Positions 22,583 through 22,874 of a stretch of DNA of 64,000 nt are shown here, in pieces (the stretch's first letter is position 1; the number at the start of each line of letters is the position of its first letter). Where the stretch lies: NCBI GenBank assembly GCA_003565775.1, contig PXAT01000138.1, positions 1 through 64,000 on the forward strand. The letters are read 5' to 3'. Under the pieces are notes generated by a model that was not told where the DNA came from, searched no databases, and saw only the letters and a program-made list of their open reading frames with translations. The DNA comes from Ectothiorhodospiraceae bacterium. Lineage in GTDB: Bacteria > Pseudomonadota > Gammaproteobacteria > Nitrococcales > Aquisalimonadaceae. Both the position numbers and the translations under genes were made by a program.

Positions 22583-22874
22583 GGAAACAATGATCTATTC
22601 CCGCGACTGCGCCCGAGACCGGTTTTGGTCAGCTGGCAAGGCGGGGTGCCGGTGCGGTAGTGATTCTACCGAACCGGTAGCGCAACGCCGCCAGGGGCCA
22701 AAACCGGCCGGGCCTCCAGGGAGCATGTACCGTTTCGTACCGCTTCGGCCGCATTTCCCCCGACTGCGGCGTTGCGCTGCTTGACCGCAGAATGACTGCG
22801 GTGCTGTGCAGCGCGCCTTGCCCCGGAGAAAATGCGGACTCCAACGCAGGCGTGCGAACAGGTTCAGTGTTTCC
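22583..22874. repeat. MITE-like element, copy C (long, modular form)
   Basis: A non-coding element of about 292 bp running from GGAAAC to GTTTCC, flanked on both sides by ATAA, a possible 4-bp target duplication. The left part (CGAGACCGGTTTTGGTCAGC, then a CCGGTGCGGTAG...CTACCGAACCGG hairpin) matches the reverse complement of copy B. The right part (CGCAGAATGACTGCGG and onward) matches copy A. A middle block of about 115 bp, with TACCGTTTCGTACCG, is missing in copy B. Short ORFs within it are artefacts. It ends 30 bp before the obgE start codon and fills most of a 406-bp gap. Confidence 0.85.

Follow-up and report, generated by a model that had tools for sequence, protein, structure and literature searches.

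A 292-bp repeat between obgE and rpmA is very probably an old non-autonomous MITE served by an IS5-family transposase

Element C and its position

In the window, which is the whole 64,000-nucleotide stretch of contig PXAT01000138.1 analysed here, a repeat called element C lies between obgE and rpmA of an Ectothiorhodospiraceae bacterium. In our judgement C is very probably an old non-autonomous MITE, and an IS5-family (NCBIfam IS5_4) DDE transposase would recognise its ends in trans. A sequence-only reading had described C as a 292-bp non-coding element ending in GGAAAC/GTTTCC, with ATAA on both sides. Direct reading confirmed its coordinates, ends and flanks, and the open reading frames inside it are mechanical only. 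The features around C are as follows.

22583..22874, plus strand: element C, 292 bp, very probable MITE copy between obgE and rpmA; family membership by BLASTN/nhmmer
22583..22600, plus strand: left terminal inverted repeat of C, GGAAACAATGATCTATTC; agrees with the terminus of the family as aligned over 49 copies
22856..22874, minus strand: right terminal inverted repeat of C, GGAAACACTGAACCTGTTC; one extra base relative to the consensus
22579..22582, no strand: ATAA, left target-site copy of C; direct reading
22875..22878, no strand: ATAA, right target-site copy of C; direct reading
22717..22748 (approximate), plus strand: central-loop region of C, with some 22 bp that the 269-bp consensus lacks; seed alignment
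21476..22552, minus strand: obgE, start codon 30 bp from C; orthologues compared
22959..23219, minus strand: rpmA (ribosomal protein bL27); orthologues compared
22910..22936, minus strand: rpmA intrinsic terminator, with a counterpart in relatives' spacers

C thus sits between the rpmA terminator and obgE, and judged by this position it would belong to the obgE leader if a promoter follows the terminator; a promoter scan around C found none. As a single strand C folds strongly, with z = -6.2 as RNA and -7.3 as DNA. An Rfam scan of the window gave no family above threshold at C and reported RNase P and a tRNA only; the RNase P RNA (class A) is complete, at 55223-55571 on the minus strand.

Size, spread and structure of the family

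Far from being alone, C found 55 matches in its own genome, of which more than 40 were strong. Exact copies of the terminal motif GGAAACRNTGA number 205 in 3.2 Mb of this genome, and those of the reversed pattern 0. We put the copy number in this bacterium at roughly a hundred, an estimate that rests mainly on the motif count, copy numbers having been obtained through searches and sampled stretches; the stretches of the window genome were picked partly for holding copies, so densities taken from them are biased. Several copies (L013, L015, L018, L021 and the one at window 1-121) sit at contig ends. The family probably fragments this assembly, and the true copy number may be underestimated.

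The consensus built from 49 aligned full copies is 269 bp long, and C is a variant of it, longer by about 22 bp in the central loop. Full copies measure 237-319 bp and have no capacity to encode a transposase. In the sampled stretches, size classes were found at about 46-50, 162 and 237-271 bp, with 0 pairs in the reversed controls. The aligned copies of the window genome share a mean pairwise identity of 87.6%, and since the maximum is 94.4%, none of them is recent. To C itself, the best full-length copies are 81-84% identical by BLAST, and its nearest copy shows 89.6% identity. Four other copies (L002, L004, L022 and L024) carry differing small central-loop insertions near the extra bases of C, some of them hairpin-like (of the AGCATGC..GCATGCT type); in the seed alignment those of L002 and L004 differ from that of C and occupy the same place.

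Two congeners are also rich in the family; a stricter motif occurs 169 and 135 times in them. In other genera of the same bacterial family it is sparser, and through most of the order it is rare. A few more distant genomes hold it as well; related elements with matched variant ends were observed in a genome from a distant family of the class (G131; L226 and L230), which suggests horizontal spread or a much older family. By ObgE, the named records closest to the window genome include Ectothiorhodospiraceae MAGs, at 79 and 76%. A full copy gave no match in a BLASTN search of plasmids, and our literature search found no relevant paper on the terminal sequence or on MITEs in Ectothiorhodospiraceae.

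Two further copies in the window

1..121, plus strand: copy A, right half of a copy (consensus 148-269), truncated by the contig end
2827..2988, minus strand: copy B, internally deleted copy of 162 bp

The earlier reading had seen C as modular, one half matching copy A and the other matching copy B in reverse complement, with a 115-bp block absent from B. Both half-matches are real by BLASTN: C 170-276 matches copy A (window 1-106) at 87%, and C 1-109 and C 242-292 match copy B (2988-2880 and 2876-2827) in reverse complement at 83-84%. Copy B, however, lacks about 132 bp (C 110-241), not 115. Copy A was cut short by the end of its contig (C127), whose base 1 is where the window starts, and we therefore ruled it out as a short variant. 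The 24-nt arms of copy B are perfectly complementary and both hold the rare variant TAGTC for TATTC; its flanks, CCAG/CTAT, are without a target duplication. Window 16885-16937 also matches the left half of C weakly (79%), which may reflect a decayed family fragment or chance.

Target duplications and unoccupied sites

An exact 4-bp target duplication flanks 23 of 51 full copies, compared with a mean of 9.2 and a maximum of 19 when right flanks were dealt to random copies in 10,000 trials. The composition of the flanks gives a target preference of Y-T-A-R, and YTAR is the published target of IS5 (PMC10359306); the ATAA of C itself does not fit it. Two tandem pairs of copies share a single 4-bp target between their members (L014, with CTAG, and L009).

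The sequence-only reading had proposed to look for empty sites in the orthologous rpmA-obgE gaps, and no relative examined carries the full element there. In the congener G001 this spacer holds a hairpin of about 50 bp that shares the ends of the element and lies at another distance from the terminator. The spacers of the other relatives examined gave no significant match; the spacer has diverged, and the exact site of C cannot be placed in it. At three further loci the element is missing from the orthologous spacer (L017 versus L184, L190 versus L212, and L211 versus L189). For the first of these, a locus of the window genome compared with G001, the alignment runs almost to the insertion point, making it the sole unoccupied site placed nearly to the base. 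A fourth locus (L210 versus L189) has only the version of about 50 bp. Joined flanks read open in 20 of 51 copies, a figure that is uninformative in GC-rich DNA. The comparison of genomes points to mobility in the past. Neither outcome that the sequence-only reading had named as refuting it, a lack of further genomic copies or a locus occupied alike in all relatives, came about.

A probable partner transposase in related genera

In another genus of the family (G011) we found a 327-aa transposase with PF05598 and PF01609, which scores 341 bits against NF033581 IS5_4 (cut-off 140). The ends of its element, each read inwards, are GGAAACGCTGATCTAAT and GGAGACACTGATTTATTC. A sister genus (G004) carries four insertion sequence (IS) copies of 1,205 bp, 95% identical, with the ends GGAAACGCTGATTTATTC / GGAAGCGCTGATCTAAT and the flanks CTAA/CTAA twice, TTAG/TTAG once and CTAA/CTAG once. 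Within the genus of the window, the only trace is a fragment of 47 aa in G001, at 53% identity and with a stop, near the end TTAG-GGAAATGCTGATTTATTT; G005 likewise has a transposase fragment near a similar end.

IS and MITE resemble each other in sequence only at their ends (18 bp at 94%, 42 bp at 74%). By the terminology of PMC10969869 the element is therefore a type II MITE; for the same reason, descent of the MITE from this particular IS is not demonstrated. The nearest plasmid relatives of the IS, at 62-72%, include an IS5 element on plasmid 2 of Aromatoleum aromaticum EbN1, which starts CTAG-GGAAGCGCTGATTTATTC and so has termini like those of our family.

It is almost certain that an IS5-type transposase moved the family of C. 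The earlier proposal of a non-autonomous family mobilised by a transposase elsewhere in the genome is borne out by the dispersed copies, the 4-bp duplications, the empty sites and the IS5-family insertion sequences of sister genera, but not as regards a transposase in the bacterium's own genome today. The transposase with matching terminal inverted repeats that it called for exists in sister genera, and none with these ends was found in the assembled window genome. No intact matching transposase was found in the window genome or in three congeners, though fragmented assemblies often lose repeats, and the congeners showed no PF01609 transposases. Two window-genome proteins with PF01609 and PF05598 (L087, L090) came into question as partners, but we rejected them for want of matching ends nearby. 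The family looks dormant in the window genome because there is neither an assembled partner transposase nor a pair of near-identical copies, and it is probably inactive there now.

Alternative identities and proposed mechanism

Could C instead be a structured RNA or regulatory element, such as an obgE leader, kept by selection and not mobile? Its strong fold, the compensatory inner-hairpin changes between subfamilies and its place between the rpmA terminator and obgE would all suit such a role. The copies are nevertheless dispersed at unrelated loci and flanked by target duplications, the full element is missing from the obgE-rpmA spacer of relatives, and Rfam has no match over threshold, so that we regard this reading as very improbable. 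We give still less credence to a REP/REPIN-type element mobilised by RAYT, a Y1 tyrosine transposase. REPINs (PMC3116915) resemble the family in being inverted palindromic repeats of high copy number, its hairpins of about 50 bp included, and Y1_Tnp matches do occur in G001 and G003. However, Y1_Tnp (PF01797) has no match in the window genome (G000) or in G002, both copy-rich, and no RAYT partner was found where C resides; moreover, the family shows the 4-bp YTAR duplication typical of IS5, and its ends match an IS5 element.

The closest parallels are the type II MITEs QMITE1 and QMITE2 of Coxiella burnetii (PMC10969869, PMC5896051). Like our family, they are small and non-coding, with terminal repeats, target duplications, a stable fold, IS similarity at the ends only and a size gradient from full length down to about 40 bp. 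Unlike the AT-rich QMITEs, this family is GC-rich, differs in sequence and has an IS5-type partner, and its 4-bp YTAR duplication differs from the 7-9 bp of QMITE2. With IS5 family insertion sequences (NF033581) it shares the same kind of termini and, in the G004 copies, the YTAR duplication; those elements encode a transposase, whereas the MITE does not and has the ends alone in common with them.

According to the IS5-dependent MITE model that we favour, the transposase would bind the termini of about 18 bp (GGAAACRCTGA...) and mobilise the element, and repair would then duplicate the YTAR tetranucleotide into which it inserts. The interior would be built from two half-modules, inverted, rich in hairpins and lacking coding capacity, an arrangement that would account for the modular pattern noted earlier. 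Internal deletions would give the 162-bp and perhaps the roughly 50-bp versions, and central-loop insertions would give versions like C. We infer both the recognition of these copies by that transposase and the chemistry of transposition. C itself is in all likelihood a real, old copy of such an IS5-dependent family, ordinary in kind. A repeat of about 100 copies is hereby tied to a named transposase type, and non-coding spacers such as that of obgE become annotatable.

Paired evolution of the two ends

One feature came unexpectedly: the two ends evolve as pairs inside individual elements. Over 49 copies, the 18 outer pairs of the terminal repeats are 94.1% paired, against 34-49% in slid controls. 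In the window genome, the arms of one copy differ by a mean of 1.36 over the 18 outer positions, whereas a left arm shows on average 4.28 differences in 18 from its equivalent in the copy whose interior is most similar, and a right arm 3.00; shared ancestry is controlled in this comparison only through the nearest relative. When arms were re-paired at random, the observed total was never reached in 10,000 trials. Copy B is a clear case of the pairing, with TAGTC replacing TATTC in both of its arms.

What keeps the ends matched may be a homogenising process, either template switching between arms or conversion that accompanies transposition or gap repair, a suggestion we make tentatively. Template switching is able to homogenise inverted repeats (PMC8794818, PMC8604942); since the arms here lie more than 200 bp apart, it would not clearly happen more readily between them than within the inner hairpins. 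We hold with equal reserve that the transposase or transposases favour equal ends without any arm-to-arm copying, a possibility compatible with the IS5-dependent MITE model. Such a preference would fit the matching seen within the genome in the outer 18-30 bp or so; the candidate IS itself has unequal ends, which speaks mildly against it, and the many combinations in which variant ends occur also count against it. If homogenisation is true, the family would preserve, in a bacterium, a natural record of copying from arm to arm. Paired end evolution in any case provides a many-copy data set on how inverted repeats stay matched.

Alignment cells changed on both sides numbered 83, compared with 31.6 after shuffling and 4-16 with slid partners. 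Within the window genome, the counts were 37 versus 13.2 for the outer 18 bp and 6 versus 0.9 for the next stem; the inner hairpins, which vary little there and offer low power, showed no paired change. Between subfamilies, the inner hairpins covary, with 67 versus 12.4 and 30 versus 5.0 shuffled.
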